Shown: positions 28,984 through 47,434 of the stretch, piece by piece
How positions within the stretch are numbered: the stretch's first letter is position 1
How the letters are laid out: every line of letters begins with the position of its first letter
DNA from: Symbiobacterium thermophilum
Lineage (GTDB): Bacteria > Bacillota > Sulfobacillia > DYFQ01
NCBI GenBank assembly: GCA_020725105.1
Contig: DYFQ01000002.1
Coordinates: forward strand, 47,531 to 111,530
Direction of reading: 5' to 3'
Length of the DNA: 64,000 nucleotides
Made by a program: the position numbers and the translations under genes
The notes under the pieces: generated by a model
The model's input: the letters and a program-made list of their open reading frames with translations, nothing else
Database searches by the model: none
What the model was told of the DNA's origin: nothing

Positions 28984-29127
28984 CTCGGATGACGCCCTCC
29001 TGGCGGGGCGGCCGACGAGTATCTGTTCACGAGCCTCGGACCGAACCAGGCGTGGCTGGAGGCCGCCCCAGCCGCCTCCGCCGACGTGGTGTTGCGATGA
29101 GCCAGGCCGGGAAACCGGCGTCAACAC

Positions 29128-29727
29128 CTACGACGTGGCGGAACAGCCCCACGTCCGGCTGCAGGACGGCGGCGCCCGTGGCGCGACCTGCCCAGCGTCA
29201 CCTTGCCCGACCCCGTGCCCGGCCGGCTGGCGCAGGGCCGTGCGCACCAGGCGGGCCAGGGCCAGCGCCGCCTCGGCCACCTCCGGAGATAGCCCGTCGT
29301 AGACGCTCAGCTGCCGCGGCTGGATGGCGATGACCGCCGTGCGGCAGCCGCAGGCCAGAGACAGGTACCGCAAGAACCAGGCCACGGGCAACCGGTGACT
29401 GGAGAGGCTCGGCCCTTCGCACTCGTCGGCCTCCAGCCAGGCGATGGCCCCCGGCGGTTGGCCCAGTTCCCCGGCGTCCAGCACCAGGCAGTGGCTGGGC
29501 CTGAAGCGCTCCACCTGGCCGGCGAAGTTCTCGGGCACCGGTCCGGCCAGGAAGACCCGGACCTCAGGGCTGCCCGGCCGCTGCCTGCCGCGCCCGACGG
29601 AAAGGGCCAGCCGGCGGGCCGCCACCATGCCGGCGGCGTCGTCGCCCGCCAGTTCCTGGCCCACGCCCACCACGGCCACCCGGGTGGCTCCGGCCAGCCA
29701 GCCCCGCAGCGGCGCCTCGATGCTCAC
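29128..29727 (-). CDS. [NiFe] hydrogenase maturation endopeptidase (HycI/HyaD family)
   Basis: VAVVGVGQELAGDDAAGMVAARRL, CLVLDAGELGQPPGAIAWL; ATGA overlap with the preceding ferredoxin-subunit gene. Confidence 0.85.
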   Translation of the reverse strand: MSIEAPLRGWLAGATRVAVVGVGQELAGDDAAGMVAARRLALSVGRGRQRPGSPEVRVFLAGPVPENFAGQVERFRPSHCLVLDAGELGQPPGAIAWLEADECEGPSLSSHRLPVAWFLRYLSLACGCRTAVIAIQPRQLSVYDGLSPEVAEAALALARLVRTALRQPAGHGVGQGDAGQVAPRAPPSCSRTWGCSATS

Positions 29728-30191
29728 CGCGCCCCGTCTCCTGCCGCCTGCGGGTAGCGCTCCGGCTCCGACGCCGCGCCCCCGCCGCCGGCAGCGGCTC
29801 CCGCCTTCGAACCCGGTTCCGGCACCGGCAGAACAGGGGGCTCATAAAAGGCCTGGCGGCTTCCCGCAGCCAGTTCGAACACGGCGCTCATGGTGATGGC
29901 GTCGCGAGGGCAGAGCTCGGCGCAGACGCCGCAGAAGGTGCAGCGGTCGAAGTAAAAGGCGGGCCGCTTGACCTTCTCCGCCAGGGCCAGCAGGTCGATG
30001 GCCTCCGAAGGGCACTCGCGGGCGCACAGGCCGCAGCCGTTGCACCGGTCCACGTCCAGCCGGGGCCGGCCGCGAAAGCCCGGCGGCAGGGTCAGCCGTT
30101 CCCGGGGATAGCAGACGGTAGCCGGGCGGCTCACCAGCCGCAAGAAGAGTTCCCGAGCGATGGTGCCGGGATAGCTCACAGCAACCACCAT
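29724..30191 (-). CDS. Two-[4Fe-4S] ferredoxin subunit (NuoI/HycF-like) of group 4 hydrogenase
   Basis: CNGCGLCARECP and CTFCGVCAELCP. Confidence 0.92.
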   Translation of the reverse strand: MVVAVSYPGTIARELFLRLVSRPATVCYPRERLTLPPGFRGRPRLDVDRCNGCGLCARECPSEAIDLLALAEKVKRPAFYFDRCTFCGVCAELCPRDAITMSAVFELAAGSRQAFYEPPVLPVPEPGSKAGAAAGGGGAASEPERYPQAAGDGAR

Positions 30192-31141
30192 CCTCTGAGG
30201 GCAACCACCACGAACAGCTGCAGCAAGGCGGCGGGCACCAGCACTCGCCAGCAGAAGGTGACCATCTGCTCGATCCGGAGGCGGGCCGCCGCGGCCCGGA
30301 CGGCCGCCAGGATCAGGACCAGCACGGCCAGCTTGAACAGGTACACCACCAGCCCCGGCACCGGTCCCCAGGCGGCGTGCCCCCCCAGGTAGAGGTTGCT
30401 GATGAGGGTCAGGCCCACCACCAGTTCGGCCCCGATGGCCAGCCGGAACAGGGCCAGCCGGCCGCCGCTGTACTCGGTGAAGGTGCCGGCCACCACTTCC
30501 GTCTCGGCCTCGGGGATATCGAAGGGGACCCGCTCCAGCTTGCCCTGGAGGGCCAGCAGGGCCACCACCAGACCGATCACCTGCAGGGGCAATAACTCGG
30601 GCCGGCCGGCCAGGGTCCGGGAGACCTCGCTGATGCTCCAGCTGCCGGCGACGACGGCCGGGGCCAGGACGGCCAGCAGCAGCGGCACCTCGTACCCCAG
30701 CAGCTGGGTGGCGGCGCGGACCCCGCCCACCGCGCCGTAGGGACTACCTGAGAACCAGCCGGCCAGGAAGAACAGGATAGCGGGCAGCGTCAGGAGGTAG
30801 GCCACCACCAGGAGGTCCCCGGGGAAGGCGTAGACGGCCCGGCCGCCCGCCACGGGCAGGTAGACATAGGCACAGGCCACCGCGGCCAGGGCCAGCACGG
30901 GCAGGAAGGTGAACACCGCCCGGGAGGCCAGCCGGGGTACCAGATCTTCCTTGGCCAGCAGCTTGATGAGGTCGGCCGCCGGCTGGAACCAGGGCGGGCC
31001 CATCCGGTGCTGGTACCTGGCATAGGCCTTGCGGTCAAGCCACTCGCCGGCCAGCGCCAGCAAGAGCAGGAAGGCAAAGCCCGGGAAGACCAGCACCCGG
31101 AAGAGTTCCCTCAACACGGCGGTCCAGTCAGCGCCACCCAT
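30176..31141 (-). CDS. NuoH/HycD-like membrane subunit of group 4 hydrogenase
   Basis: LALAGEWLDRKAYARYQHRMGPPWFQPAADLIKLLAKEDLVP, VPFDIPEAETEVVAGTFTEYSGGRLALFRLA. ATG 31141 overlaps the end of the large-subunit gene. Confidence 0.93.
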   Translation of the reverse strand: MGGADWTAVLRELFRVLVFPGFAFLLLLALAGEWLDRKAYARYQHRMGPPWFQPAADLIKLLAKEDLVPRLASRAVFTFLPVLALAAVACAYVYLPVAGGRAVYAFPGDLLVVAYLLTLPAILFFLAGWFSGSPYGAVGGVRAATQLLGYEVPLLLAVLAPAVVAGSWSISEVSRTLAGRPELLPLQVIGLVVALLALQGKLERVPFDIPEAETEVVAGTFTEYSGGRLALFRLAIGAELVVGLTLISNLYLGGHAAWGPVPGLVVYLFKLAVLVLILAAVRAAAARLRIEQMVTFCWRVLVPAALLQLFVVVALRGWWLL

Positions 31142-32318
31142 CAGGCTTCCCTCCATACCAGCGGATCCCGTAGTCCCGTAGCTGGGCCCAGGTCCAGACC
31201 TTCCCGTCGCCGCCACCGGCGGGCGCCAACCGTACCAGGCGGTCGGTGCAACTGAAGCAGGGGTCGATGGACGCCAGGGTGATGGGCACGTCGGCCAGGT
31301 GCACGCCGCGCAGGGCCTGCATGATGGTGGGCAGGTTGGCCAGGGTGGGGGCCCTCACCTTGACCCGGTCCGGCCGGTCGCTACCGTTGGCCCGCACGTA
31401 GTGGATGTCCTCGCCCCGCGGCGCCTCGTACCGGCTGATGGCCTCCCCCGGACCCACCCGGCGCCTGGGCCTGACGGCGATGGGGCCGTCCGGAAGGTGT
31501 TCCACGCAGTAGCGGAGCATGCCGATGCTCTCGTACAGTTCTCCCACGCGCACCACGGCCCGGGCCAGGTTATCTCCGCCGGTGTGGGTGATGACATTGA
31601 AGGGGATCTCGCCGTAAGCGGCATATGGTTCGTCCCGGCGCACGTCGGCGTCGACCCCCGAGGCCCTGGCCAGCGGCCCGACGGCGCACAGGTCCACCGC
31701 CTGCTGGTAGGGGATGACGCCGACGCCCTGGAGCCGGGCCAGGAAGGTGCTATCGTTGGTGGCGACGTGCTGGTAGTACCTGGTCCGCTCCTCCAGCACC
31801 GGCAGCGCCCGCAGGATGCCCTCGGCCGCCTCGGGACCGAGATCCCGGCGGACCCCGCCGATGTTGTTGATGGCATAGTTCACCCGGTTGCCAGAGATCA
31901 GTTCCAGCAGGTCCATCACCAGTTCCCGGTCGCGCCAGGTGTACATGAAGAAGGTGTCAAAGCCCACCTCGTGTCCGGCCACACCCAGCCACAAGAGGTG
32001 GGAGTGGATCCGCTCCAGTTCCGCCACGATGGTCCGGATGTACAACGCCCGGGGCGGCACCTCCAGACCCATGATCTCCTCCACCGCCTGCACGAAGCAG
32101 GTGGTGTGGGAGTGGGAGCAGATGCCGCAGATCCGTTCCAGGAGGTAGACGCACCGGGAATAGGTCCGCTGCTCGCAGGCCTTTTCGATGCCCCGGTGGT
32201 TGTAACCGATCCGGGCCAGGGCGTCCACCACCACCTCCCCTTCCAGGGTGAGGGTGAAGTTCTCGGGTTCCTTCAGCGCCGGGTGTTGCGGGCCGATGGG
32301 GACCTGGATCCGGCTCAT
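31128..32318 (-). CDS. Group 4 [NiFe] hydrogenase large subunit (NuoD-like, Ni-Fe ligands retained)
   Basis: PIGPQHPALKEPENFTLTLEGEVV, GYNHRGIEKACEQRTY; N-terminal RICGICSHSHTTC and C-terminal DPCFSCTDR. Confidence 0.93.
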   Translation of the reverse strand: MSRIQVPIGPQHPALKEPENFTLTLEGEVVVDALARIGYNHRGIEKACEQRTYSRCVYLLERICGICSHSHTTCFVQAVEEIMGLEVPPRALYIRTIVAELERIHSHLLWLGVAGHEVGFDTFFMYTWRDRELVMDLLELISGNRVNYAINNIGGVRRDLGPEAAEGILRALPVLEERTRYYQHVATNDSTFLARLQGVGVIPYQQAVDLCAVGPLARASGVDADVRRDEPYAAYGEIPFNVITHTGGDNLARAVVRVGELYESIGMLRYCVEHLPDGPIAVRPRRRVGPGEAISRYEAPRGEDIHYVRANGSDRPDRVKVRAPTLANLPTIMQALRGVHLADVPITLASIDPCFSCTDRLVRLAPAGGGDGKVWTWAQLRDYGIRWYGGKPDGWR

Positions 32319-32779
32319 CCCTCTGCCTCCTCTTCGCCAGCGGCCCGGGCGGGCCCGGGAGGCCAGTCCTTGCGAAGGGGATAGATCCCCCGCGGCCAGT
32401 CCTCCGTCAGCACCAGCCGGCCGGGGTCGGGGTTGCCGGCCGGCTCCACGCCCAGCAGATCGCGGACCTCCCGTTCGTACCAGGCCGCGCCGGGGATCAG
32501 GTCGACGATGCTGGGCACCTCCGGCCGGTCCCGCGGCACGGTGACCCGGAGGGTGACGACGGCGCCGCCGCGGGCCAGGTGGTACAGGACCTCCAGGTCG
32601 GTCCCGTTGTCCAGGCCGGTGATGGTACTCACGTGACGCACCTGCCACCGGTCCCGCAGCCGGTGCACGACACCGCGGAGTTCCGCGGGGGGAACGTCGA
32701 CGAACAGCCGGCGCGGCGGCCCTTCGGCCTGCCCGAAGGCGGCGTCGACGGCCTGCTGGACCCGGTCCAGGTCGGTCAC
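32315..32779 (-). CDS. NuoC-like subunit of group 4 hydrogenase
   Basis: RDRPEVPSIVDLIPGAAWYEREVRDLLGVEPAGNPDPGRLVLTEDWPRGIYPLRKDW. Confidence 0.92.
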   Translation of the reverse strand: MTDLDRVQQAVDAAFGQAEGPPRRLFVDVPPAELRGVVHRLRDRWQVRHVSTITGLDNGTDLEVLYHLARGGAVVTLRVTVPRDRPEVPSIVDLIPGAAWYEREVRDLLGVEPAGNPDPGRLVLTEDWPRGIYPLRKDWPPGPARAAGEEEAEG

Positions 32780-33345
32780 GGCGCCACCCTCCCCTCACTG
32801 TCGCCCGCTGGCTGCCCATCGCCCGCCGGAGCCCGGCCGCCCGGCGCTGTCGCCCCACCACCGGCAGCGCCCCGGGCGGTACCGGCGTACGGCTGGCCGG
32901 CTGCGCTCTCCCCGGACCGGGCCAGGGCTGCCAGGAGTTGCGCCGCCCCGTGGATGATGGCGTCCGGCCTCGGCGGGCAACCAGGCACGTACATGTCCAC
33001 CGGGATGGCCTCGTCGACGCCGCCCAGCACGTTGTAGCAGCCCCGGAACACTCCCCCTGAGGCGGCACAGGTGCCCACCGCCAGCACGAACCTGGGGGCG
33101 GGGATCTGCGCGTAGATCCGGCGCAGGCGGCGGGCCACCTGCCGGGTCACCGGCCCGGTACAGACCAGCACGTCCGCGTGGCGCGGGCTGCCCTTCAGCA
33201 GCATGCCCAGGCGCTCGACGTCGAAGCGGGGGCACAGAGCCGCCAGCACCTCGATGTCACAGGCGTTACAGGCGCCGCTGTTGAAGTGCAGGATCCACGG
33301 GGACTTGACCCGGGCCCACCGAACCAGTCGTTGCCACAGGCCCAC
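32776..33345 (-). CDS. NuoB-like small subunit of group 4 hydrogenase
   Basis: HFNSGACNACDIEVLAALCPRFD, VCTGPVTRQ, VGTCAASGGVF, YVPGCPPRPDAII. Confidence 0.93.
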   Translation of the reverse strand: MGLWQRLVRWARVKSPWILHFNSGACNACDIEVLAALCPRFDVERLGMLLKGSPRHADVLVCTGPVTRQVARRLRRIYAQIPAPRFVLAVGTCAASGGVFRGCYNVLGGVDEAIPVDMYVPGCPPRPDAIIHGAAQLLAALARSGESAAGQPYAGTARGAAGGGATAPGGRAPAGDGQPAGDSEGRVAP

Positions 33346-33392
33346 TGCCTCATCTCCCCTTCACGTCATCCCGCGGCGGCGGAAGACTCTGG

Positions 33393-33740
33393 CTACGGCC
33401 GGGCCTCAGCCAGGAGCGCCCAGCCGGCCAGGGCGATGGCACCCAGGTAGAGCAGACCCAGGGCACCAACGCCGCCCGGGACCGTGGCCACCACCACGGC
33501 GGCCACGTGGAACACGGTGAACAGAACCGCCACGGCGAAGAACTGGCCGTAGTCGGGCTCGATGGGCCTGGCCGGCCAGTCCTCGCCGCAGGCGTAGGGC
33601 TCCAGCTTCTCCGGATCGGGATCACCCTCGGCCCGGAGGCGGCGACCCAAGAAGTAGAGCGCCAGCGCCGCCAGGACCATCAGCCCCAGGGCCACCGGGG
33701 GCGACGCCACCCACGCGGCCGCTACCAGGTACGTATCCAT
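33393..33740 (-). CDS. NuoA-like membrane subunit
   Basis: EKLEPYACGEDWPARPIEPDYGQFFAVAVLFTVFHVAAVVV; GGGAGG Shine-Dalgarno upstream of ATG 33740. Confidence 0.82.
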   Translation of the reverse strand: MDTYLVAAAWVASPPVALGLMVLAALALYFLGRRLRAEGDPDPEKLEPYACGEDWPARPIEPDYGQFFAVAVLFTVFHVAAVVVATVPGGVGALGLLYLGAIALAGWALLAEARP

Positions 33741-33786
33741 CATGCCGCCTCCCGTGACTGCTGTCGCGGTCGGACCGCGCCCCGCC

Positions 33787-35298
33787 TCATCCGCCGCCAC
33801 CTACCACCGAGAGCAGCACCCTCGCCGCCGGGACGGCCACCGACAGGCCCCACTGGGGCCAGAGGCCCAGTCCGACGGTGATCACGCCCAGCACGACCAG
33901 GGGCACCGTGATGGCCGGCGGCTCGGCCGGCCCGCCGGCCGCGGCCTGAGACCCGCCCGCCGGCGCGGGCCGCCCGTACAGGGTCCAGATGAGGGGCATG
34001 TAGTAGCCCAGCGACAACACGCTGTTGCCCACCGCCAGGGCAGCCAGGCCCCAGCCCAGCGCCCCGCCGAGGCCGATACCGGCCGCGTAGATCAACCACT
34101 TGGACATGAAGCCCGACAGGGGCGGCACCCCGGCCAGAGCCAGACCGGCCACGGCCAACCCCGCGGCGGCTACCGGCAACTGGCGCGCGGCTCCCCGCAG
34201 GCGGGGGATTTCCCTGGTCCCCAGGTGGTGCAGGAAGGCGCCGGCACAGAGAAATGCCAGGCCCTTCATGAAAGCGTGCGTGAGCAGGTGAAACAGGCCT
34301 CCGTCCAGGCCGGCCGTGACCCGGTAGCCGAGTCCCAGCCCCACGCCGAGCAGGATGTAGCCCATCTGGGCGATGCTGGAGTAGGCCAGCAGGCGCTTGA
34401 GGTCCCGCTGGACCAGCGCCACCAGGTTGCCCCAGGTCATGGTCAGCCCGCCCAGCAACGCCAGGGTCAGCCCGACCGGGAGCGCCCCGTCGGCACCCAG
34501 GGCGGTGCCCGCCCGGAGAAACGCCACCAACCCGGCCTGGATGACGATGCCCGACAGCATGGCGCTCATCGGGCTGGGCGCGGCGGCGTGGGCATCCGGA
34601 AGCCACGTGTGTAGCGGCACGACGGCCGCCTTGATCCCGAAGCCGGCCAGGAACAGGGCCACGGCCAGGCCGCGTACCCCGACCCCCAGTTCGGGCGCCA
34701 GCCGGGCCAGGCCGGCCAGGTCCAGCCGGCCGGCTACCGCGAACACCAGCGCCAGGCCGAGCAACACCAGCTGGGAACCGATGGCCGAGATGACCAGGTA
34801 CTTGAAACCTGCCTCCACCGGCTCCCAGTGGCCTCGCCGGTAGGCCACCAGGGGGTACGACGAGACCGCCATCAACTCGAAGAAGACGAACAGGGTGAAC
34901 AGGTTGGCCGCCGCCGACAGGCCCACGATGCCCGAGACCATCAGCAGGAACAGGGCGAAGTACTTTCCCGAGCCCGCCTCCCCGGCCACGTAGGCCAGGG
35001 AGAACACGGCGGCCAGCAGGCCGAGGGTCAGGGCGACGCCGCCGACCAGCAAGGTCAGCCCGTCGGCCGCCAGCAGCGGCACCTGGCCTGTCGGAGGGGT
35101 CCAGCCGCCGGCGGCGGCGGCCAGCACCGCCAGGGAAATCGCCAGGGCGGCCACGGCCACCCTACCCGGGACGGCCGCGCCCGGCGGCCGGCCCGCCAGT
35201 GCCGCCCGCCCGTCGGTGACCCTCCCCGCGACGTAGGCCAGCGCCGCGCCGGCCGCCAGGACGCCCAGGACCACCAGGACCGCACCGCTAGCCATCAA
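33787..35298 (-). CDS. NuoN-like proton/cation antiporter-type subunit
   Basis: FVFFELMAVSSYPLVAY, GIKAAVVPLHTWLPDAHAAAPSPMSAMLSGI, RDLKRLLAYSSIAQMGYILLG. Confidence 0.9.
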   Translation of the reverse strand: MMASGAVLVVLGVLAAGAALAYVAGRVTDGRAALAGRPPGAAVPGRVAVAALAISLAVLAAAAGGWTPPTGQVPLLAADGLTLLVGGVALTLGLLAAVFSLAYVAGEAGSGKYFALFLLMVSGIVGLSAAANLFTLFVFFELMAVSSYPLVAYRRGHWEPVEAGFKYLVISAIGSQLVLLGLALVFAVAGRLDLAGLARLAPELGVGVRGLAVALFLAGFGIKAAVVPLHTWLPDAHAAAPSPMSAMLSGIVIQAGLVAFLRAGTALGADGALPVGLTLALLGGLTMTWGNLVALVQRDLKRLLAYSSIAQMGYILLGVGLGLGYRVTAGLDGGLFHLLTHAFMKGLAFLCAGAFLHHLGTREIPRLRGAARQLPVAAAGLAVAGLALAGVPPLSGFMSKWLIYAAGIGLGGALGWGLAALAVGNSVLSLGYYMPLIWTLYGRPAPAGGSQAAAGGPAEPPAITVPLVVLGVITVGLGLWPQWGLSVAVPAARVLLSVVGGGG

Positions 35299-35322
35299 GG
35301 CTCCTCCCTCTCCTCCGCCGGG

Positions 35323-36825
35323 TCACGGCCCCGGCCAGCCGATGCCCACCACGGCCAGGGCTCGCGACACCAGGCCGACGATGGGCGACGGCACCAGGCC
35401 AACCAGCAGGACGGCCAGGCCGGTGACGGCCATGGTCCCGGCGATGGCGCCCGGTGCCTCGTTGACCTCCGCCAGCGCCCGGGGTAGCGGGCCGAAGAAG
35501 GCCCGCCGCACCAGGTTCAGTCCGTAGGCTGCCGTCAGCACGCTGCCCAGGGTGGCGGCGGCCGCAAGGATCACGTAGCCGGAACCAAAGCCGCCCGCCA
35601 GGATCAGCCACTCGCTGTGGAAGCCTGCCAGCAGGGGCACGCCGGCCAGGGACAGGACGGCCACCAGGGTAGCCGCCGCCGTCAGCGGCATCCGGGCGGC
35701 CAGCCCGCCCAGTTCCCCGAGTTGCTCCGTACCGGCCCGCACCAGCAAGGCGCCGACGGCCATGAACAATAACGCCTTGGCCAGGCCGTGGGTGACCACG
35801 TGCATCACCGAGCCTGCCAGTCCCAGGGCATGGACCGAAGCCACGCCGAGGAGCACGTAGCCCATCTGGCTCATGGTGGAGTAAGCCGCCAGGCGACGGA
35901 CTTCTCTCTGCACCAGGGCCATCAGGGCTCCGTACAGCTGGGTCACCACCGCCCAGGTCAGCAGGAAGCCGGCCCACGGCAGTAGCAAGGTGGCCGGAAA
36001 GGCGGTGAACACCAGCCGGACCAGGGCGTAGATTCCCGCGCCCATCATGGCGCCGGCCATCGCGATGACGGCCGGCAACGGGGCGGTCCGGTACGTGTCC
36101 GGCAGCCAGCCGTGGACAGGAAACAGGCCGAGCTTGACCGCGAGGCCCGCCAGCAACAGGCCCAGCAGCCACCGCAACTGGCCGGGGGCGACGTGCTCCA
36201 GGCGGCCCGCCAGCCCGTACAGGTCGGTCGAACCGGTGACCGCCCACAGGCCGAGCAGCCCGGCCAGCAACAGAACGGCACCCACGTGAGAGTAGACGAA
36301 GTAGCTGAGGGCCACCCGGCCGCGGTCGGGGCTCTCGCCCCAGAAGCCCACCAGGGCCACCGACGCCACCAGCATCAGTTCCCAGAAGACGTAGAACTGG
36401 ATGATGTCGGTGGCCAGCCCGGTGCCGACCATGCCCGCCAGTAGGAGCAGGATCCACGCGTACAGCGACGCCGGAGCGCCCTGGCGCCTGGCGTAGTATT
36501 CTCCGGCGTACACCAGGGCCAGAACGGTCACGGCCGCGACGGTCCCCAGCAGCACCAGGCTGAGGCCGTCCACCCGCAGGTCAAACCGGATGCCCACGGC
36601 CGGCGCCCAGCCGGTCCGCAACGTGGCGGTCCCGGTGGGCCCGGTCATGGCCCCCAGGAGGGCAATCCCCAGGGCCGATGCGACCGCCGCCCCCAGTGCC
36701 GCGTTGCCGACCCAGGGCCGGCGTTCGGATGCCCGGGCCGCCAGGACCAGCGCCCCCACGAGCGGAGCACCCAGGCTCAGCCCGATCCCCAGGCTCAACA
36801 AGAGACTCCCCCCTAGAGCCACCAC
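35323..36825 (-). CDS. NuoM-like proton/cation antiporter-type subunit
   Basis: FYVFWELMLVASVALVGFWG, AVKLGLFPVHGWLPDTYRTAPLPAVIAMAGAMMGAGIYALVR, REVRRLAAYSTMSQMGYVLLG. Confidence 0.9.
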   Translation of the reverse strand: MVALGGSLLLSLGIGLSLGAPLVGALVLAARASERRPWVGNAALGAAVASALGIALLGAMTGPTGTATLRTGWAPAVGIRFDLRVDGLSLVLLGTVAAVTVLALVYAGEYYARRQGAPASLYAWILLLLAGMVGTGLATDIIQFYVFWELMLVASVALVGFWGESPDRGRVALSYFVYSHVGAVLLLAGLLGLWAVTGSTDLYGLAGRLEHVAPGQLRWLLGLLLAGLAVKLGLFPVHGWLPDTYRTAPLPAVIAMAGAMMGAGIYALVRLVFTAFPATLLLPWAGFLLTWAVVTQLYGALMALVQREVRRLAAYSTMSQMGYVLLGVASVHALGLAGSVMHVVTHGLAKALLFMAVGALLVRAGTEQLGELGGLAARMPLTAAATLVAVLSLAGVPLLAGFHSEWLILAGGFGSGYVILAAAATLGSVLTAAYGLNLVRRAFFGPLPRALAEVNEAPGAIAGTMAVTGLAVLLVGLVPSPIVGLVSRALAVVGIGWPGP

Positions 36826-38660
36826 AGCAGCAGGATCAGAATGAGTGTCAGCCCCACCAGGGCGCTGACGGTGTTGTCGGCCAGGTCGCCCGTCTGGGCC
36901 AGCCGAAGACCGCCGGCCGCCTTGCCGAAGCCCCCGGCCACCAGGTCCTGCAGCCTGACACCGAGACTCGGTTCCAGCCGCCGCCCGGCGGCCAGCCCCA
37001 AGGCCTCACCGGCGGCCAGCAGCCGGTTGATGAGCCCGTCGAAGCCGTACCCGGCCCGGAGCATGACCCCGAGATCCGGCGCGACCCTCACCAGGACGGC
37101 ACCGGGGTCGCGCCAGCACCAGACCGCCCAGCCGCCGGCGGCCAGCGCCGCCAGGGCCACCAGAACGGCCGGCGAGTGCAGGGTGTGGGCGACCAGCTCG
37201 GCGGGCCCGAGCACCTCGTGGGCCAGCCCGGCCGCCGCGAGGTGACGCGTCTGGACGCCCGTGCCCAGCCACGATACGGTGGCACCCAGCGCCAGCAAGC
37301 TCAGCGGCACCGTCATGACCCACGGCGCCTCCTCGCCCGCCCGCCGGGGCTCACCGCAGAAGACCAGGTAGTAGGCGCGGAAGGCGTAGGCCGCCGTCAG
37401 TGCCGCCGCGAGGCCGGCCACGAACAGCGCCAGTGCCCGACCCTGATCCCAGGCGGCCGCCAGGATCAGGTCCTTGGTCCAGAAGCCGTTGAAGACGGGC
37501 ACGCCGGCCAGGGCCAGGCAGCCCACGAGAAAGGTCCGGCCGGTCCAGGGCATCACCCGGCCCAGGCCGCCCATCTCCGACATGAGCCGCGTGTGGAACC
37601 GGTGGATGACGGCGCCCGCGCCGAGAAACAAGAGCGCCTTGAACAAGGCGTGGCTTACCAGATGAAGCTGGCTGGCGGCGATGGCCCCCAGCCCCACCGC
37701 CATGAACATGAAACCCAGCTGGCTGATGGTGGAGTAGGCCAGCAGCCGCTTGAGGTCCGGCTCCACCAGGGCCAGGGCGGCGGTGAGGAAGGCCGTGATC
37801 ACCCCGACCCAGAGCACGGTGTCCAGCCAGCCCGGCACGGCCGTGAACACTGGGGCGGTCCTCGCCACCAGGTACACCCCGGCGTTCACCATGGTGGCGG
37901 CGTGGATCAGCGCGCTGATCGGGGTGGGCGCCTCCATGGCGTCGGGAAGCCAGACGTGCAGCGGCAACTGGGCCGACTTGGCCACGGCCGCCAGGAGGAA
38001 GCCGAACCCGGCCAGCGCGAGGGCAGCCGGGGAAACCTGGCCGGCCGCCACCCGGCCGGCGATCTCCGGCCACACGAAAGTGTGGGGCGTCGTCGCGAAG
38101 TACAGGGTCAGGATTCCCACCAGCAGCCCGGCGTCACCGATCCTCGTGGTCAGCAAGGCCTTGAGTCCCGCCCTGGCCGCCTTGTGCTCGCGGTAGGCAA
38201 AGCCGATCAGGGCATAGGAGCACAGGCCCACGATCTCCCAGAACACGTAGAGCAGCAGCAGGTTGGCCGACAGGGCCAGCCCCACCATGCCGCCGATGAA
38301 GAGCACCAGAAAGCCGTAATACCGGCTCTGGTCCGCTTCGCCGGCCATGTAGCCGGCCGAGTACAGGACAATCACGGCGCCCAGCACGCCGGCGATGAGG
38401 GCCAGGAAGACGGACAGCCCGTCGGTGAAGACCACGATGGGCACCAGGCCCGGGACCCAGTCACCAAGGTAGACCGTCCCGGGCCGGATGGCGGGTAGCA
38501 GCAACAGGCTCAGGACCGCCGTGGCGCCCGCCGCCAGCGCGATGACCGCCCCGCGCAGCCGGGCCCCGCTCAGCGCGGCCAGGGGGACCAGAGCCGCCCC
38601 CAGCAGGGGAATGAGGACCGCCCAGCGGGCCAGCGCGGCCACGGCTCCCGTGTCTGTCAC
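36813..38660 (-). CDS. NuoL-like proton/cation antiporter-type subunit
   Basis: YVFWEIVGLCSYALIGFAYREHKAARAGLKALLTTRIGDAGLL, SAQLPLHVWLPDAMEAPTPISALIHAATMVNAGVYLVART, DLKRLLAYSTISQLGFMFMAVGLG. Confidence 0.95.
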   Translation of the reverse strand: MTDTGAVAALARWAVLIPLLGAALVPLAALSGARLRGAVIALAAGATAVLSLLLLPAIRPGTVYLGDWVPGLVPIVVFTDGLSVFLALIAGVLGAVIVLYSAGYMAGEADQSRYYGFLVLFIGGMVGLALSANLLLLYVFWEIVGLCSYALIGFAYREHKAARAGLKALLTTRIGDAGLLVGILTLYFATTPHTFVWPEIAGRVAAGQVSPAALALAGFGFLLAAVAKSAQLPLHVWLPDAMEAPTPISALIHAATMVNAGVYLVARTAPVFTAVPGWLDTVLWVGVITAFLTAALALVEPDLKRLLAYSTISQLGFMFMAVGLGAIAASQLHLVSHALFKALLFLGAGAVIHRFHTRLMSEMGGLGRVMPWTGRTFLVGCLALAGVPVFNGFWTKDLILAAAWDQGRALALFVAGLAAALTAAYAFRAYYLVFCGEPRRAGEEAPWVMTVPLSLLALGATVSWLGTGVQTRHLAAAGLAHEVLGPAELVAHTLHSPAVLVALAALAAGGWAVWCWRDPGAVLVRVAPDLGVMLRAGYGFDGLINRLLAAGEALGLAAGRRLEPSLGVRLQDLVAGGFGKAAGGLRLAQTGDLADNTVSALVGLTLILILLLWWL

Positions 38661-38686
38661 CCAAACCCCTCCTTTCGTTCCGGCCC

Positions 38687-38989
38687 CTAGCCGCGGAGCC
38701 GGGTCAGCCGCCGGACGTCCGGCAGGCCGAAATGCTGCCGGGCGCCGGCCACCATGGCCAGGCCCAGGGCGACCACGGCAGCGTCAATGGTGATGATGAG
38801 GATGGCCATCACCTGGGCCAGCCCTGGCTGGCGCTGGACCACACCCGCCGCCACCACGGCCAGGGTGGCGCCCCTGGCGATGACCTCCAGGCCGATGAGC
38901 AGCTTGATCATGCTGCTCTGGGTGAAGATGGCCCAGAGGCCCAGGCCCGCCAGGACGGCGACGGTGGCCATGACGTGACCCAGGCTCAC
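38687..38989 (-). CDS. NuoK-like membrane subunit (100 aa)
   Basis: GTG 38989 overlaps the nuoJ-like TGA; IKLLIGLEVIARGATLAVV, VMAILIITIDAAVVALGLAMV. Confidence 0.85.
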   Translation of the reverse strand: MSLGHVMATVAVLAGLGLWAIFTQSSMIKLLIGLEVIARGATLAVVAAGVVQRQPGLAQVMAILIITIDAAVVALGLAMVAGARQHFGLPDVRRLTRLRG

Positions 38990-39552
38990 GCCGCGTCCCC
39001 CCCTCCGGCGTCCGCCGGCGCCCCGGCCTCGTCGTGGCCGGCCCGAGACTGCCCGGCGGCCCGTGGGACCAGGGCGACGATGCCCCATACCGCGGCCAGC
39101 AGAATGGCGGCCTGCCCGCCCAGGTCGAGGGGTCGCGCCACCCAGAGCAGGGAGCGCGGGTCCCCGTCCGGCGGCGTCAGTGCCACCGCCAGTTGGGGGG
39201 CGGCATGTAGCCACTGACCGGCCGCCCGGCCGGCCAGCAGCAGGCAGACTCCCAACAGGCCGAGCCCGACGGGACCTCGCGCGAAGCGCCAGCCGCTCGC
39301 CGGTTCCGGGGCGCGGTCGGTCCGGGCCAGGGGACCGCCCAGCGAGATGGCGGCGAGAAACAAGACGGTAACCAGACCGGCCGCCACGGTCAGCTCGAAG
39401 ACCCCGGCGTACGGGGCTCCGAGGCGGTAAAAGACGAGGGCCAGGACTGCGCTGGCTCCGGCCAGGCTGACGACGGCGGCCATCAGGTGCCGCAGGCCGA
39501 CCGCCATCGCGGCCAGAACCACGATGGCCAGGAGCAGAATGGTGTCGAGCAT
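38986..39552 (-). CDS. NuoJ-like membrane subunit
   Basis: MLDTILLLAIVVLAAMAVGLRHLMAAVVSLAGASAVLALVFYRLGAPYAGVFELTVAAGLVTVLFLAAI. Confidence 0.75.
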   Translation of the reverse strand: MLDTILLLAIVVLAAMAVGLRHLMAAVVSLAGASAVLALVFYRLGAPYAGVFELTVAAGLVTVLFLAAISLGGPLARTDRAPEPASGWRFARGPVGLGLLGVCLLLAGRAAGQWLHAAPQLAVALTPPDGDPRSLLWVARPLDLGGQAAILLAAVWGIVALVPRAAGQSRAGHDEAGAPADAGGGDAA

Positions 39553-39663
39553 GCTACTGCCTCCCGACCAAGCATAGGGCGAAGAAATGGAGAAACTCTT
39601 GCCAATGTCTAGCCGCGGACTTGCATTTGCGCAGGTAAAATGCGGCACGGGGCTTTGCAGATT

Positions 39664-39692
39664 CGTTGCGCAGTGCAACGTTGTGCTACAAT
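39664..39692 (+). promoter_or_regulatory. Inverted repeat CGTTGC-N5-GCAACG overlapping a candidate sigma-A promoter of the sensor kinase gene
   Basis: CGTTGCgcagtGCAACG at 39664-39680; TTGCGC (39666-39671) and TACAAT (39687-39692); kinase ATG at 39790. Confidence 0.5.
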
Positions 39693-39789
39693 CAAGCTGG
39701 AATCGAGAGACCGGCCCACGCCCAAGAGGCTGCTGGCAAGTCCCGTTCCCGTCGACCAGCGGACGCGGCTCGTTCCGGGGGGAACGGGT

Positions 39790-41580
39790 ATGGCCCCTAC
39801 CGGCAGGCCGGGACCGGCCCGGCCGGCCCAGACGCTTAGCTTCCGGCTCCTCACCCGGCTGGTGGCCATCACCGTCGTGGTGGCGGCGGTCAACCTCTAC
39901 TGGAACATCAGCCGCGAGACCCTCCAGGCCTACCGCGACCTGCACGCCCGGGCCCGCCTCATCAGCGTGCAATTTCTCAGCGTCCGCAGCTGGGTCGCCC
40001 AGCAGCCGGGGGCGGCCATCCCCGGCGAGAAGTACACCCACCTGGACCCCGAGGCCGTGGCGGCGGGGCTCCGCACGGTGTTTGCCGACGACCCCGGGGT
40101 GGCGCTACGGGAGGTCTGGGTTCGGGCCAGCGACGAACTGCACGCGCCCGACCCGCTGGAAGAAGAGGCCATCCGCCGCTTCACCACCGACCCGACCTTG
40201 GTGGAGTTCTCGGTGCTGGAACGAGCGGGAGGAGTCAGCCGGTTCCGCTACCTGATCCCCATCCAGATGGAGGAGGCGTGCCTCACCTGCCACCGGCCCT
40301 CCAACGGTGCCGCGGCCGACGAAGCACGCGAACAGAACCAGGCTGCCGGCGGAACCGCCGCCCTGGACTCCGGCACCGCCGCGCTGCTCCCGCCCGAGTT
40401 CAACCTGGGCGAGGTGGCGGGAGCCATCAGCCTGGCCATTCCCACCCGCGCGCTGGACGCCCGCCTCCAGAGCCAGTTCCTGGTGAGCCTGGGCTTCACC
40501 GTGGCCCTGGTGGCCATGCTCTTCGCCGCCGTCTACGCCACCATGGCCCAGCTGGTCACCCGGCCCCTGGCCGGGCTCGGCGCCTGGTGCCGGCGGATCG
40601 CCTCTGGCGACCTCGCCCGCCACCCCAGACTGCAGCCGGCCCCGAGGGAGATTGCCGACCTGGCCAGGGAGTTCCAGGTGATGGCCCAACGCCTGCACGA
40701 CCTGTACCAGCACCTGGAGGATAAGGTGGCCCAGCGCACGGCCGAACTGTCGGAAGCCAACCGCCGCCTCCAGTTGAGCCAGCAGGAGCTGCGCCGGGCG
40801 TACGAAGAGGTATCCGAGGCCAACCGGCTCAAGTCCGATTTCCTGGCAACCACCAGCCATGAGTTGCGGACCCCGCTCACGTCGATCATCGCTTCCACCG
40901 AACTCCTGCTGGAAGAGGCGCCCGGGGGGCTATCAGACCGGCAGCGGGAGTACCTGCAGGGGATTCTGGACTCCAGCTACCAGTTGCTCGGGTCCATCAA
41001 CAGCCTGCTGGACATGGCCAAGGTGGAAGCGGGCCGGATGGAGTTCCGCCCGTCCCTGTTCCGCCTGGAGATCCTGGTGGAAGCGGTGGCCCGCCGGATG
41101 GAAGCGCGGGCCGTGCGCAAGGGCATCTCCTTCCGGGTGGCCCTGGACGGCCCCCTGCCCGCGCTGACGGCCGATTACCGCAAGATCGAGCAGGTCCTGT
41201 TTAACCTGGTGGACAACGCCATCAAGTTCACCCCCGCCGGGGGAACGGTGACGGTGGGCGCCCGCTACCAGCCCGACAGCGGCAGGGTTCAGTTGCACGT
41301 TCAGGACACCGGCATCGGCATCGCCCCGGAGGAGCACGAGCGCATCTTCGAGAGTTTCTGGCAGGCGGGATCCGCCTCCACTCGCGAGCACCGGGGCACG
41401 GGGCTGGGGCTGGCGCTGGTGAAGCGCCTGGTGGAAATGCACGGTGGCTCGGTCGGGGTCACCAGCGCGCCGGGCAAGGGCAGTACCTTCACCGTATCCT
41501 TGCCGGTCGTCACCCCCGCCGCGGCCTCCAGGCCCGGTTCCGAACGCCGCAACAGACGCGAAGGGAGTGAGCCCCCGTGA
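39790..41580 (+). CDS. Sensor histidine kinase with DUF3365-like CxxCH (heme-c-type) extracytoplasmic sensor domain
   Basis: N-terminal TM, CLTCHRPSNG, second TM, HAMP-like region, FLATTSHELRTPLTSIIAS (H box), DNAIKFTPAGGTVTV, GIGIAPEEHERIFESFWQAG, GTGLGLALVKRLVEMHGG. Confidence 0.92.
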   Translation: MAPTGRPGPARPAQTLSFRLLTRLVAITVVVAAVNLYWNISRETLQAYRDLHARARLISVQFLSVRSWVAQQPGAAIPGEKYTHLDPEAVAAGLRTVFADDPGVALREVWVRASDELHAPDPLEEEAIRRFTTDPTLVEFSVLERAGGVSRFRYLIPIQMEEACLTCHRPSNGAAADEAREQNQAAGGTAALDSGTAALLPPEFNLGEVAGAISLAIPTRALDARLQSQFLVSLGFTVALVAMLFAAVYATMAQLVTRPLAGLGAWCRRIASGDLARHPRLQPAPREIADLAREFQVMAQRLHDLYQHLEDKVAQRTAELSEANRRLQLSQQELRRAYEEVSEANRLKSDFLATTSHELRTPLTSIIASTELLLEEAPGGLSDRQREYLQGILDSSYQLLGSINSLLDMAKVEAGRMEFRPSLFRLEILVEAVARRMEARAVRKGISFRVALDGPLPALTADYRKIEQVLFNLVDNAIKFTPAGGTVTVGARYQPDSGRVQLHVQDTGIGIAPEEHERIFESFWQAGSASTREHRGTGLGLALVKRLVEMHGGSVGVTSAPGKGSTFTVSLPVVTPAAASRPGSERRNRREGSEPP

Positions 41581-42299
41581 CGGGCCGTCCCAACCTCAAC
41601 GAAAGCCGGCCGAGCATCCTGGTGGTGGACGACGAACCCACCATTCTCAAGGCGGTGGGCGACCGCCTTGCCCGGGAGGGGTTCAGCATCATCACCGCAA
41701 CCGACGGCGAGGACGCGCTGGAGAAGTTCCAGCGCCACCGGCCGGACCTCATCGTCCTCGACCTGATGCTACCGAAGCTGGACGGCTTCGAGGTCTGCCG
41801 GGTGATCCGGGAACGGTCGTCTACCCCCATCATCATCCTGTCGGTCCGGGGAGACGAGATCGACAAGCTGGTCGGCTTCCGGCTAGGGGTCGACGACTAC
41901 ATGGTCAAGCCCTTCAGTCCGTCGGAACTGGCCATGCGGGTCCAGGCGGTGCTGCGCCGGGCCTCCCGCGCCATGGGGCGCTCCCGGGAGCGCGACGAAC
42001 TCCGCTATGCCGGCCTGGTCGTCGACCGTGGCAAGCGCTCGGTGACCATCGAGGGTCGCCCGGTGGAACTGACCGCCAAGGAGTTCGACCTCCTGTGGCT
42101 TTTGGCGTCGCACCCCGATTACGTCTTCACGCGGGAGCAACTGCTCGACCACATCTGGCAGAGCGACTACGAGGGGGACCTGAACAACGTCACGGTGCTG
42201 GTAAGCCGGCTCCGGGAGAAGCTGGGCGAGGACCCCTCCAACCCGCTGTACGTCCGTACCGTATGGGGAGTGGGCTACAAGTTCCAGCCCCCGGCCTGA
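41577..42299 (+). CDS. OmpR-family response regulator
   Basis: ILVVDDEPTILKAV, LIVLDLMLPKLDGFEVCRVIRE, winged-helix tail (ELTAKEFDLLWLLASHPDYVFTREQLLDHIW...VRTVWGVGYKF); GTGA overlap with kinase. Confidence 0.95.
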   Translation: MTGRPNLNESRPSILVVDDEPTILKAVGDRLAREGFSIITATDGEDALEKFQRHRPDLIVLDLMLPKLDGFEVCRVIRERSSTPIIILSVRGDEIDKLVGFRLGVDDYMVKPFSPSELAMRVQAVLRRASRAMGRSRERDELRYAGLVVDRGKRSVTIEGRPVELTAKEFDLLWLLASHPDYVFTREQLLDHIWQSDYEGDLNNVTVLVSRLREKLGEDPSNPLYVRTVWGVGYKFQPPA

Positions 42300-42397: not shown

Positions 42398-42474
42398 CGC
42401 AAGCCCGCAGCCACGGCGGCGAAACCATCAACTGCTAGCATCAGGGTGCAGCCCTATCAAGGGGGTGACACCCT

Positions 42475-42618
42475 GTGCTCGCCCGGCTGGGGAAGGCGTA
42501 CGCGGTCCTCCACTGTGTGTGTTGCGGGGTCTTCATGGCCTGCCACCTGGCCGTGGCCCTCCTCGTCACGGCGCTGGTGGTCTGGGCTTTCGTGGTGGCA
42601 CCGTTCGTCTCGCCATAG
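42475..42618 (+). CDS. Small (47 aa) Cys-rich single-TM protein, unknown function
   Basis: Not in ORF track. GTG start after GGGGGTG: VLARLGKAYAVLHCVCCGVFMACHLAVALLVTALVVWAFVVAPFVSP*. Confidence 0.45.
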   Translation: MLARLGKAYAVLHCVCCGVFMACHLAVALLVTALVVWAFVVAPFVSP

Positions 42619-42846
42619 CGTTTCATCGCAGAGCCCCCAAGACCGAGGTCAACGCCCGCCACCGGTCCCCGCGCGGGCTCGGGATCGGGCCGCTGTCGTT
42701 CCACCGTCGGCGACACGTACCCGCCTCCCGGCTCACGGTGGCCGAAAGGATCCGGCAAGGACAAGGGGCCGCCCCATGCCTGGCGGCCGGGCCCGGCAAG
42801 GGTTCCGCAACTCTTTCGTCCGCCTTGCTCAAGCTACACCCGCCAA

Positions 42847-42863
42847 CTGGCAAGGTTCCTGCT
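42847..42863 (+). promoter_or_regulatory. Sigma-54-like -24/-12 element upstream of the group 3b hydrogenase operon
   Basis: CTGGCAAGGTTCCTGCT (GG-N10-GC; compare YTGGCACGRNNNTTGCW); related CCGGCAAGGGTTCCGCA at 42793-42809. Confidence 0.4.
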
Positions 42864-42955
42864 ACCAAAAAGCCAGCGCCACGTCAACGGGCCGCAAGCT
42901 CGGTTTGCTACCCTGCCCTGGGAGAAAGACCCTCCATTTCAAAGGGGGTGGCGGG

Positions 42956-44104
42956 ATGCCCCCGCGACTGCTGGCCACCGACGAGGTGGAAGCTCTCTTC
43001 CAGGCCTTGCGACGCCGGGGCCCGGTGTTCGGGCCGGCGGCCGGCCTTGACTCCGGCGCCAGGCCTCCCCCGGCAGGCCGGCTGACGCCGCTGCGCTACG
43101 CCCCTCTGGAGCGGGCCTGCGACGCCGTCCTGGCCCCGGCCGCCTTCGGCTACCCCGCCAAGAGGCTCTGGTTCCGGCCGTCCGTTACCCTGGCGGCCGC
43201 CCGCCGGGCAGTGCCGGCCAGCGGCCCGGGGCCCTGGGAGCCCGGGCCACCCCCGGCCGGCGCCGCCCCGCCCCTGAACCCGGACCCGGCCCGCCCTTTC
43301 GCCGTCTGGGGCGTTCGTGGCTGCGACCTGGCGGCTCTGGAGCGCTTGGACGCCGTGCTCATGACCGGTCCCGTGACCGACCCTGAATACGCCGCCCGGC
43401 GCCGGGCCGGCACCGTCGTGGCGTTCACCTGCACCCAGGCTGGGCCGGCCTGCTTCTGCACGGCGACGGGCGGGTCACCGGTGCCCGCCGGTGGCTGTGA
43501 CCTGGTGGTCACCCCCCTGGCGGGTGGCCCCGGCGGGAACGGGGCCCGGGAGTACCTGGTGGAACCCCGCTCGGCCCGGGGTGAGGCCCTGGTGGAGGAG
43601 GTCGGCGGCCGGCCCGCGGGGCGCGCGGCCGTGGCGGCGGCGGCGGCGGTGATCGGCAGCGTGCGGGCCGCGTTGCCCCGGTCCCTGAACGGCAGGCTCA
43701 GGCCTGAAAACGCCGCCCAGAAGGCGGCGCGGCGGCTGGACAGCCCGGCCTGGGACGAGCTGGCCGGCCGGTGCCTGGGCTGCGCGGCCTGCAGCCTCAC
43801 CTGCCCGACCTGCCCCTGTTTCGACGTGGTCGAACGGGTGTCAGCCACCGCGGACGCCGGCTGGCGGGAGCGCCGCTGGACGTCCTGCCTGGTGCCGGAT
43901 TTCGGCCGGCTGGCCAGCCACAACGCGCGGGCCCGGCGGGAGAACCGGCTGAAGCACTGGCTCCTGCACAAGCTGGCCCCGGCGGAGAAGGTTACCGGTG
44001 GGCTGACCTGCGTGGGCTGCGGCCGCTGCTCGACCTGGTGCCCGGCCGGGCTCGGCCTCCGCGCCGCGCTCGAGAGCCTCGAGGGAGAGGGGGGCTTGCC
44101 GTGA
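42956..44104 (+). CDS. hydB: Group 3b hydrogenase/sulfhydrogenase beta subunit (HydB-like, 4Fe-4S dicluster)
   Basis: CLGCAACSLTCPTCPCFDV...CVGCGRCSTWCPAGL; WGVRGCDLAALERLD; clustered with flavoprotein, small and large subunits. Confidence 0.88.
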   Translation: MPPRLLATDEVEALFQALRRRGPVFGPAAGLDSGARPPPAGRLTPLRYAPLERACDAVLAPAAFGYPAKRLWFRPSVTLAAARRAVPASGPGPWEPGPPPAGAAPPLNPDPARPFAVWGVRGCDLAALERLDAVLMTGPVTDPEYAARRRAGTVVAFTCTQAGPACFCTATGGSPVPAGGCDLVVTPLAGGPGGNGAREYLVEPRSARGEALVEEVGGRPAGRAAVAAAAAVIGSVRAALPRSLNGRLRPENAAQKAARRLDSPAWDELAGRCLGCAACSLTCPTCPCFDVVERVSATADAGWRERRWTSCLVPDFGRLASHNARARRENRLKHWLLHKLAPAEKVTGGLTCVGCGRCSTWCPAGLGLRAALESLEGEGGLP

Positions 44105-45012
44105 CCGGGTGCTCCGGGTGGGTGACCCCCAACCCGTACCAGCCCGTGGCCTGCCGGGTGGTGGCGGCGGTCCCGGAGACGAGCGACACCGTCACCCTGA
44201 CCATCGCGCCTCCTCCCGCAACCGCCTGGCGCTTCCAGCCCGGCCAGTTCAACATGGTCTCCCTCTACGGCGTGGGTGAGGCGCCGATCTCCATCGCTTC
44301 CGACCCGGCGGACCCGGAAGGGCTCGTCCAGCACACGGTCCGCGCCGTGGGCCGGCTGACCAGGCCCCTGACCACCCTCCGGCCCGGGGACACCGTGTGG
44401 CTGCGCGGCCCCTACGGCCGCCCGTGGCCCCTGGACGCCTGGCGGTCCAGAGACCTCCTGCTGGTCACGGGCGGGCTTGGCCTGGCCCCGGTGCGGCCGG
44501 TCGTCCTGGCGGCCGGCCGGGCGCGACACCTTTTCGGCCGGATCGAGCTCTTGTACGGCGCCAGGACGCCCGGCGACCTGTTGTACCGGGACGCCTTGCA
44601 GGAGTGGGCCCGGGTGTTTGACATGACCGTCCGGGTCACCGTCGACGCGGTCCCCCCGGACCAGGTCTGGGCAGGTCCGGTCGGGGTCGTGACCCGGCTG
44701 TACGAGGCGATGACCTCCCGGCCCGGCGCCGTTGCCCTGGCCTGCGGGCCCGAACTCATGATGCGGTTCGCGCTGCAGGGCCTGCTCGACCGGGGGTTCC
44801 CCGCCAGTGACCTCTACGTTTCGCTGGAACGGCGGATGGAGTGCGGGTTCGGCCACTGCGGCCGGTGCGCGCTGGGCCCGGTCAAGGTGTGCCGGGACGG
44901 TCCGGTGTTCTGCTGGGACGAACTGGCCGGGCGGGTCTGGGTGGAGGACCAGCCCGTGCTCCAGGCGGTGGGAGGTGGGCCCCGTGGCCCGGCCGCGGCT
45001 CGCCGTACTTAA
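44101..45012 (+). CDS. hydG: Group 3b hydrogenase gamma subunit (FAD/NAD(P)-binding, HydG-like)
   Basis: RFQPGQFNMVSLYGVGEAPISIASDP, VTGGLGLAPVRPVV, ECGFGHCGRCALGPVKVCRDGPVF. GTG 44101 overlaps the hydB stop. Confidence 0.92.
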   Translation: MTGCSGWVTPNPYQPVACRVVAAVPETSDTVTLTIAPPPATAWRFQPGQFNMVSLYGVGEAPISIASDPADPEGLVQHTVRAVGRLTRPLTTLRPGDTVWLRGPYGRPWPLDAWRSRDLLLVTGGLGLAPVRPVVLAAGRARHLFGRIELLYGARTPGDLLYRDALQEWARVFDMTVRVTVDAVPPDQVWAGPVGVVTRLYEAMTSRPGAVALACGPELMMRFALQGLLDRGFPASDLYVSLERRMECGFGHCGRCALGPVKVCRDGPVFCWDELAGRVWVEDQPVLQAVGGGPRGPAAARRT

Positions 45013-45751
45013 GCTGGCCTCGTGCTCCGGCTGCCAGCTGGAACTGCTCAACGCCGAGGCGACTTTGCTGGACCTGGTCAGCGCCGTGGACCTGGCTTCC
45101 TTCCCGATGGCCCGGTCCAGGCTGGAAGAGGGCCCCTTCGACGTGGTGCTGGTGGAGGGGGCGGTGGTCTCCCACCGGGAAGAGGCGGCGCTGGAGCAGG
45201 CGCGCCGTGTAGCGGGACTGCTGGTGGCCGTGGGCGCCTGCGCCACCTGGGGTGGTCTCGTCACCTGGCGCCGGCTGGCGGGCGAGACCGCCTTTGCAGC
45301 CGCCTACCCCCATCCTGAACTGGTCCCGGCCGGGGCGATCCGCGCCGTCGGCGACGCCGTGCCGGTGGACCTGGCCGTCGGCGGCTGCCCGGCGGACCGG
45401 CGGGAGCTCCTGGAAGCCGTGGGTTGCCTGCTCGTGGGCCGGGCCCCCGAGTTGCGTTCAGGCCCCATCTGCGTCGAGTGCCGGTCGCGGGAGGTTGCCT
45501 GCCGGCTCGTCAGCTACGGGGAACCGTGCCTGGGTCCCATCACCCGGGCCGGCTGTGACGCCCTTTGCCCGTCACTGGGCAGACCCTGCAACGGCTGCCG
45601 GGGACCCGCCGATGACCCCAACGGGCCAGGGCTGGCCGAAGCCTTCCGGCGGGCCCGGATAGACGCCGAACCGGACAGCCTGGGACCCTGGGCCGTCGAA
45701 CTGATGAAGAGCCAGAGTCGGAGAAGCTGTGTCGGAGGTGACGGCCCGTGA
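44984..45751 (+). CDS. hydD: Group 3b hydrogenase small subunit (HydD-like)
   Basis: LKLASCSGCQLELLN, VGACATWGG, GGCPADRRELLEAV, GPITRAGCDALCPSLGRPCNGCRGPADDPN. Confidence 0.92.
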   Translation: MARPRLAVLKLASCSGCQLELLNAEATLLDLVSAVDLASFPMARSRLEEGPFDVVLVEGAVVSHREEAALEQARRVAGLLVAVGACATWGGLVTWRRLAGETAFAAAYPHPELVPAGAIRAVGDAVPVDLAVGGCPADRRELLEAVGCLLVGRAPELRSGPICVECRSREVACRLVSYGEPCLGPITRAGCDALCPSLGRPCNGCRGPADDPNGPGLAEAFRRARIDAEPDSLGPWAVELMKSQSRRSCVGGDGP

Positions 45752-47085: not shown

Positions 47086-47434
47086 ACTAGGCCTGATGGA
47101 ACGGATCGTCGCCCTGATCGTCCGGGACGCGACGCCACGCGGCATCCGGCGGGTGACCGACGTGTCGGTGGCCCTCGGCGCCGTGTCCCACGTCACACCG
47201 GAAGCCGCCCGGTCGGCCTTCGAGATCGTCAGCGCCGGCACCATCTGCCAGGGCGCCAGGCTTCACGCGAAGCCGGAACCCCTTGAGGGCTGGTGCCCCC
47301 GCTGCCGGGCGACGCGGCGGCCCGACCCGGGGGATCTGTCCTGCCCCCGGTGCGGGGGCGCGGTGGAGGTCCCGGAGGGAGCGTCAGGGATCCGCCTCCT
47401 GTCCTACGAGGGCGAGGGGCCGGAGGAGGGCTAG
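47078..47434 (+). CDS. hypA: Hydrogenase nickel-incorporation protein HypA
   Basis: [11 protein letters not shown] start and zinc site [20 protein letters not shown]. Confidence 0.94.

Follow-up and report, generated by a model that had tools for sequence, protein, structure and literature searches.

The window analysed here, a stretch of 64,000 nt from the Symbiobacterium thermophilum assembly GCA_020725105.1 (contig DYFQ01000002.1), carries on its minus strand (39552-29128) an operon of twelve genes predicted to encode an energy-converting [NiFe] hydrogenase with the core subunits of complex I. Inspection of the open reading frames (ORFs) and Pfam matches, judged against the curated cut-offs, bore out the gene order of an earlier model-made reading of the bare sequence (the original prediction), namely J, K, L, M, N, A, B, C, D, H, I and then a HycI protease. 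All twelve genes are open, run in the same direction and are separated by short gaps or overlap. The 3′ end lies at the stop codon of the protease (29128), and not at 28985 as first given, which is the approximate end of a neighbouring gene of the major facilitator superfamily.

The operon begins with J (38986..39552; NuoJ-like, 188 aa; PF00499, 36.1 bits, cut-off 33.2) and K (38687..38989; NuoK-like, 100 aa; PF00420, 58.9, cut-off 26.1). These are followed by three antiporter-type subunits that match PF00361 with scores of 216–259 (cut-off 21.5): L (36813..38660; NuoL-like, 615 aa; TIGR01974, NDH_I_L, 455 against 407), M (35323..36825; NuoM-like, 500 aa; TIGR01972, NDH_I_M, 318 against 264) and N (33787..35298; NuoN/MbhH-like, 503 aa). 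Next come A (33393..33743; NuoA-like, 116 aa; PF00507, 26.0, cut-off 23.3), B (32776..33345; NuoB-like or hydrogenase small subunit, 189 aa; PF01058, 103), C (32315..32779; NuoC-like, 154 aa; PF00329, 108) and D (31128..32318; NuoD-like [NiFe] large subunit, 396 aa; PF00346, 231; PF00374, 50, cut-off 25.8). The mechanically listed ORF for D is too long at its 5′ end, and the start was placed at about 32318. H (30176..31216; NuoH-like; PF00146, 260) carries the PFDIPEAETEVVAGTFTEYSG motif; its listed GTG start overlaps D, and the real start is probably near 31141. The last two genes encode I (29724..30191; NuoI-like, 155 aa, two [4Fe-4S] clusters; PF00037 in two stretches, PF12838) and a HycI-type maturation endopeptidase (29128..29727; 199 aa; PF01750, 44.5, cut-off 23). 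The profile check suggested for the NuoA- and NuoJ-like proteins was therefore passed by both. No NuoEFG genes were found in the operon, and no NADH or F420 module is present there, in agreement with the original prediction.

Both [NiFe] motifs of D are intact (L1, ERICGICSHSH; L2, DPCFSCTDR), and CGICSHSH and DPCFSCTDR satisfy the motif definitions published for the archaeal hydrogenase Hfo (L1, C[GS][ILV]C[AGNS]xxH; L2, [DE][PL]Cx[AGST]Cx[DE][RL]; PMC7886697). B has a hydrogenase-type CxxC (GACNACDIE), common to members of HydDB group 4g and to nearly all group 4 loci checked; none of the Nuo and Fpo loci inspected showed it. D continues for 36 residues beyond CTDR, where NuoD and FpoD of the loci checked stop, and this extension is conserved, together with a cognate protease, across the bacterial and archaeal 4g-type family. 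The Ni-Fe motifs stand alongside homologues of NuoB, NuoD, NuoH and NuoI and an antiporter-type subunit, as in group 4 [NiFe] hydrogenases. The retained Ni ligands and D extension, and the lack of NuoEFG in the operon, separate it from complex I (Nuo), and there is no Mrp Na+ module combined with one core antiporter of MrpD type, nor does D fall in the Mbh clade, which distinguishes it from Mbh (4d). The NuoD model does give D a higher score than PF00374, as might suit a derivative of complex I that has lost its hydrogenase function and whose cysteines were regained or retained by chance, but two complete motifs, the CxxC of B, the C-terminal extension with its protease and the family-wide conservation of these features make such an origin hardly credible. 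As first proposed, the encoded enzyme is, judged from these features, a [NiFe] hydrogenase and not complex I.

In a tree of D alone, the window protein was placed in a clade of 65 rows (Shimodaira-Hasegawa-like approximate likelihood ratio test, SH-aLRT, 96), apart from Mbh, Ech, HycE and complex I, but the group 4 clade nearest to Nuo was left unsettled. Since the D tree lacked resolution near Nuo, B, C, D and H were concatenated. In the resulting tree (supports given as ultrafast bootstrap, UFBoot/SH-aLRT), the family of D, archaeal Hfo, Nuo and Fpo were separated from Ech, Mbh, Hyf and two other groups (100/100), and the bacterial clade including the window was the sister lineage of archaeal Hfo (95/92). 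Approximately unbiased (AU) tests rejected a grouping of Nuo and Fpo with Mbh (p = 0.001) or with Hyf (p = 0.011). Placing Nuo and Fpo inside or beside the Hfo/4g family gave p = 0.35, neither position being favoured. The trees are unrooted and the groupings for the AU tests were picked after the first trees had been seen, so the p values are indicative.

Operons in which L, M and N pair individually with their complex I counterparts, including that of the window, are called type-1 here, and 4g operons in which the antiporter subunits do not are called type-2. A mixture-model tree grouped type-1 L with NuoL and FpoL, M with NuoM and FpoM, and N with NuoN and FpoN (SH-aLRT 99, 99 and 98), and a careful 41-row tree gave UFBoot/SH-aLRT values of 100/99, 100/99 and 98/94, respectively. 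Nuo and Fpo form their own subclade in each of the three, with the type-1 hydrogenase subunits branching outside it. A single clade of hydrogenase L, M and N, representing a separate triplication, was rejected (AU p = 0.0009). The three antiporter subunits of type-2 operons, which make up most of 4g, show no pairing with L, M and N, and their genes are placed before JK.

Another reading is a mosaic, in which a 4g core captured its JKLMN arm by gene transfer from a nuo or fpo operon. Arm and core do act as separate modules that can be swapped or divergent, and the type-2 operons indicate that arm exchange is possible. However, type-1 L, M and N branch outside Nuo plus Fpo, the core tree independently groups with Nuo and Fpo, as shared descent predicts, and arm-bearing members are scattered round the base of the family, making such a mosaic unlikely. 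The trees largely support the view that few hydrogenases are as closely related to complex I as the Hfo-type enzymes. The proposed closeness to the complex I lineage stands as far as the core split and the one-to-one L, M and N are concerned. There is perhaps an even chance that a family of 11-subunit [NiFe] hydrogenases, shared by bacteria and archaea and already equipped with the full L-M-N-K-J-A-H arm, either gave rise to complex I and Fpo from among its members or is their immediate sister, and that its bacterial members, among them the one in the window with its swapped operon, form a sister branch to archaeal Hfo. In that case the complete arm would be older than the loss of the Ni-Fe site and also older than the gain of the NADH or F420 modules.

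The TM5 (transmembrane helix 5) Glu, TM7 Lys and TM12 Lys/Glu are conserved in alignments of L, M and N, with M having a TM12 Glu like E. coli NuoM, to which it was aligned; these channel residues are the sequence trace of the predicted ion translocation. H has a complete PFDIPEAE..EY motif. J consists of an MbhD-like N-terminal and an MbhE-like C-terminal half, and is encoded by two separate genes in some relatives (e.g., locus L040); its family profile matches MbsD/MbhD (2e-13/4e-13) and E. coli NuoJ (1e-8), and its C-terminal half matches MbsE/MbhE weakly.

The NuoA-like subunit retains the ND3-type YACGE loop, with the FDxE acid pair of complex I changed to FHxA. PF00507 is matched by the corresponding proteins of 28 of 42 family members, and their profile matches ND3 (8e-6), NuoA (2.5e-4) and, weakly, MbhI. 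An AlphaFold model (pLDDT 86, pTM 0.49) gave no significant Foldseek match (best E 2.5). The top matches, all non-significant, include ND3, NdhC and NuoA, so structure neither confirms nor refutes the NuoA identity. In the bacterial members, F-x-(I/M)-H-V replaces FDxE, and some archaeal members keep FD; the replacement is possibly a marker of a changed coupling path. The statement that typical group 4 enzymes lack an obvious NuoA homologue was only partly right, as the TM1-2 loop of MbhI is the NuoA counterpart in Mbh (PMC11228991), with a weak profile match.

Relatives of D occur at 55–64% identity in about 15 of 399 sampled genomes of the same phylum, and one genome of the same class has a relative at 68%. 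Among GTDB genomes, 80 loci with 53–65% identity were found in Omnitrophota, Planctomycetota, Elusimicrobiota, Acidobacteriota/Aminicenantes, Chloroflexota, Bathyarchaeia, Methanoregula and others. A NuoA-like gene precedes B in nearly all 4g-type loci with enough sequence, so NuoA and NuoJ are routine in the family of D. Endomicrobium, Omnitrophota and DTU015 have been reported as group 4g, and D is assigned to HydDB 4g indirectly, via such related taxa; for example, the single group 4 large subunit of an Endomicrobia genome (locus L100) lies in the same clade as D.

The order JKLMN-ABCDHI-protease recurs in at least six other genomes from three phyla: four loci of the same phylum (L036, L040, L043 and L044), one of Elusimicrobia (L095) and one of Caldisericota (L102). 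The visible part of a locus of the same class (L207) agrees with it. In Chloroflexota, including the isolate Longilinea arvoryzae, M is absent and the order is JKL-N-ABCDHI-protease. The majority layout has three antiporter genes, then JK, then ABCDHI-protease, while in archaea the two modules are either divergent or in the canonical order ABCDHIJKLMN, the latter being found in a Bathyarchaeia locus with Ni motifs and a protease (L239). An order unique to one genome was considered and rejected, given this recurrence and a Ni-less complex-I-like cluster (L073) with the order LMN-BCDHI, which places the LMN-first arrangement in a non-hydrogenase as well. The gene order described as a circularly permuted nuo is correct as stated, but since three layouts of the same two modules occur, the compared loci indicate that the ‘permutation’ is a joining of [JKLMN] and [ABCDHI-protease] the opposite way to nuo and fpo.

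With NuoA and NuoJ routine across the clade, and with D clading with loci of taxa reported as 4g, the operon might be seen as that of an ordinary, described 4g hydrogenase whose likeness to complex I is superficial and whose gene order is an accident of one genome. This is already disfavoured and improbable: several phyla have the same gene order, L, M and N each pair with their counterpart in complex I, as the antiporter subunits of most 4g operons do not, and separate triplication is rejected.

The enzyme is very probably an energy-converting [NiFe] hydrogenase, a bacterial representative of the Hfo type (HydDB 4g-like) that has all 11 core subunits found in complex I/Fpo. The subunit set, Ni-Fe and proximal-cluster motifs, protease, C-terminal extension and phylogeny are shown by the sequences and trees; the mechanism is a prediction from homology. 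Hfo of termite-gut Bathyarchaeia is an 11-subunit Fpo-like hydrogenase with a 4g-type D; Loh et al. (2021, PMC7886697) described it and proposed that it links more closely to complex I than Mbh does. It and the Hfo-like clusters of Methanomethylicus and Pyrodictium delaneyi share with the window operon the 11 subunits, L1 and L2, a 4g-type D and the lack of NuoEFG/FpoFO, as well as presumed ferredoxin/H2 coupling, and in both Hfo and the window all eleven subunits lie in one cluster. Hfo differs in its canonical, Fpo/Nuo-like order ABCDHIJKLMN, hence the term ‘Hfo-type’ rather than Hfo in the strict sense for the window enzyme with its bacterial sister lineage. HydDB 4g operons (Mrp-linked types in Omnitrophota, Endomicrobia, Aminicenantes and others) have a homologous A-B-C-D-H-I-protease core, with D at 53–65% identity, but most of their antiporter subunits, encoded before JK, are not one-to-one with NuoL/M/N. 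Nuo and Fpo have the same 11 subunits, with related L, M, N, H and A, but those checked have no Ni-Fe ligands, B CxxC or D extension, and the window operon has no NADH or F420 module. Pyrococcus furiosus Mbh (4d) has a homologous core, and MbhH resembles N, MbhD/E resemble J and MbhI resembles A, but one MrpD-type subunit and an Mrp Na+ module take the place of L, M and N; its position as sister of complex I was rejected by the AU test. Ech (4e) has homologues of B, C, D, H and I and one antiporter-type subunit, but is limited to six subunits without A, J and K, and falls opposite the window family in the core tree.

The novelty implied by the original prediction for the most part did not hold up, and only part of the interpretation is new: an 11-subunit complex-I-like hydrogenase has been known since Hfo was published in 2021, and D falls, by indirect assignment, in the described subgroup 4g with NuoA and NuoJ as routine components, which is largely the outcome that the prediction had named as its refutation. 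The new points are the bacterial spread, the recurrence of the swapped layout, the one-to-one L/M/N with rejection of triplication, and the contrast with type-2 4g arms; no earlier account of them was found in the literature searched, which was mostly open-access. An enzyme type so far described from archaea is thereby extended to several phyla of bacteria, Bacillota and Caldisericota among them. In the tree tests, the three-antiporter arm is shared subunit for subunit with complex I in an enzyme that has kept a hydrogenase active site, making the order of complex I evolution (arm first, Ni-Fe loss later) testable. Bacterial targets for purification and cryo-electron microscopy can also be named, including L. 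arvoryzae (without M).

By analogy with Mbh and complex I, the enzyme is inferred to couple a ferredoxin/H2 reaction to ion pumping. Reduced ferredoxin would pass electrons to the two [4Fe-4S] clusters of I, the probable docking and entry point, and from there via the B cluster to the [NiFe] centre of D, which occupies the position of the quinone site of complex I and would reduce H+ to H2. Loops in A, B, D and H would transmit the redox step to J/K and to the L-M-N antiporter-type chain, which would pump H+ or Na+ outwards. Six POR-gamma genes in the genome and an aldehyde ferredoxin oxidoreductase (AOR) near the operon are possible ferredoxin sources. The potentially high ion/H2 ratio suggested earlier is doubtful in the forward direction, because by our estimate, with ferredoxin near −500 mV and H2 between −300 and −410 mV, 100–200 mV per electron is available, enough for about 1–3 H+ per H2 at a proton-motive force (pmf) of 150 mV; by the same estimate, the 4 H+/2e− of complex I, if fixed, would need a low pmf, very low H2 or the reverse direction.

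The reaction is probably reversible, so that pmf could drive H2-dependent ferredoxin reduction. The enzyme might even work mainly in that direction, with pmf-driven H2 oxidation providing the reduced ferredoxin for low-potential steps such as CO2 fixation, as Loh et al. (PMC7886697) proposed for Hfo. A three-antiporter arm with a high ion stoichiometry would fit pmf consumption, and the complex I and oxidase-family genes of the genome could supply the pmf. Against it, genes for POR and AOR, which produce reduced ferredoxin, are abundant, and the direction cannot be read from sequence; a mainly reverse role is a possibility that we hold with some reserve.

Several observations count against a ferredoxin-driven Hfo-type hydrogenase with a complex-I-type arm. 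N scores below the NuoN model (222 against 333), with its top scores for MrpD/Mbh-type models; among solved relatives its best match is MbhH (261 bits; E. coli NuoN, 126), and a grouping of N with MbhH was not rejected (AU p = 0.175), although the trees favour NuoN. The operon has no electron-input module to fix the donor, and there is no biochemistry for any 4g/Hfo enzyme (PMC7886697, PMC5037454). Genes of complex I and of the heme-copper oxidase family are present in the genome as well, so the physiological role may be a different one.

Elsewhere in the genome, a Ni-less complex I cluster and a second cluster of B/D/I-like genes were found (L208, G000:C56, and L066, G000:C28), together with three COX1-family genes, so that one cell has both complex I and its hydrogenase cousin. 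A third [NiFe] large subunit (L067, G000:C21:9306-14736) is close to the only hypD of the genome. A second hydrogenase operon lies within the window on the plus strand (42446-47431), resembles a group 3b sulfhydrogenase and encodes an Fe-S beta subunit, an FAD/NAD-binding gamma subunit, a [NiFe] large subunit (45748-47082) and an adjoining HypA (47078-47431, plus strand). Between the two operons, divergent from the Hfo-type operon and upstream of the second, are genes for a histidine kinase, whose sensor domain is Tll0287-like (CxxCH, heme-binding type), and for an OmpR-type regulator (39640-42296, plus strand), a candidate redox regulator of both. The AOR gene, a possible source of reduced ferredoxin, is on the minus strand of the window (50798-52597). 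Two odd clusters with group 4 large subunits (L050 and L065) fit none of the usual types, and L065 includes an antiporter-type protein of 1291 aa.

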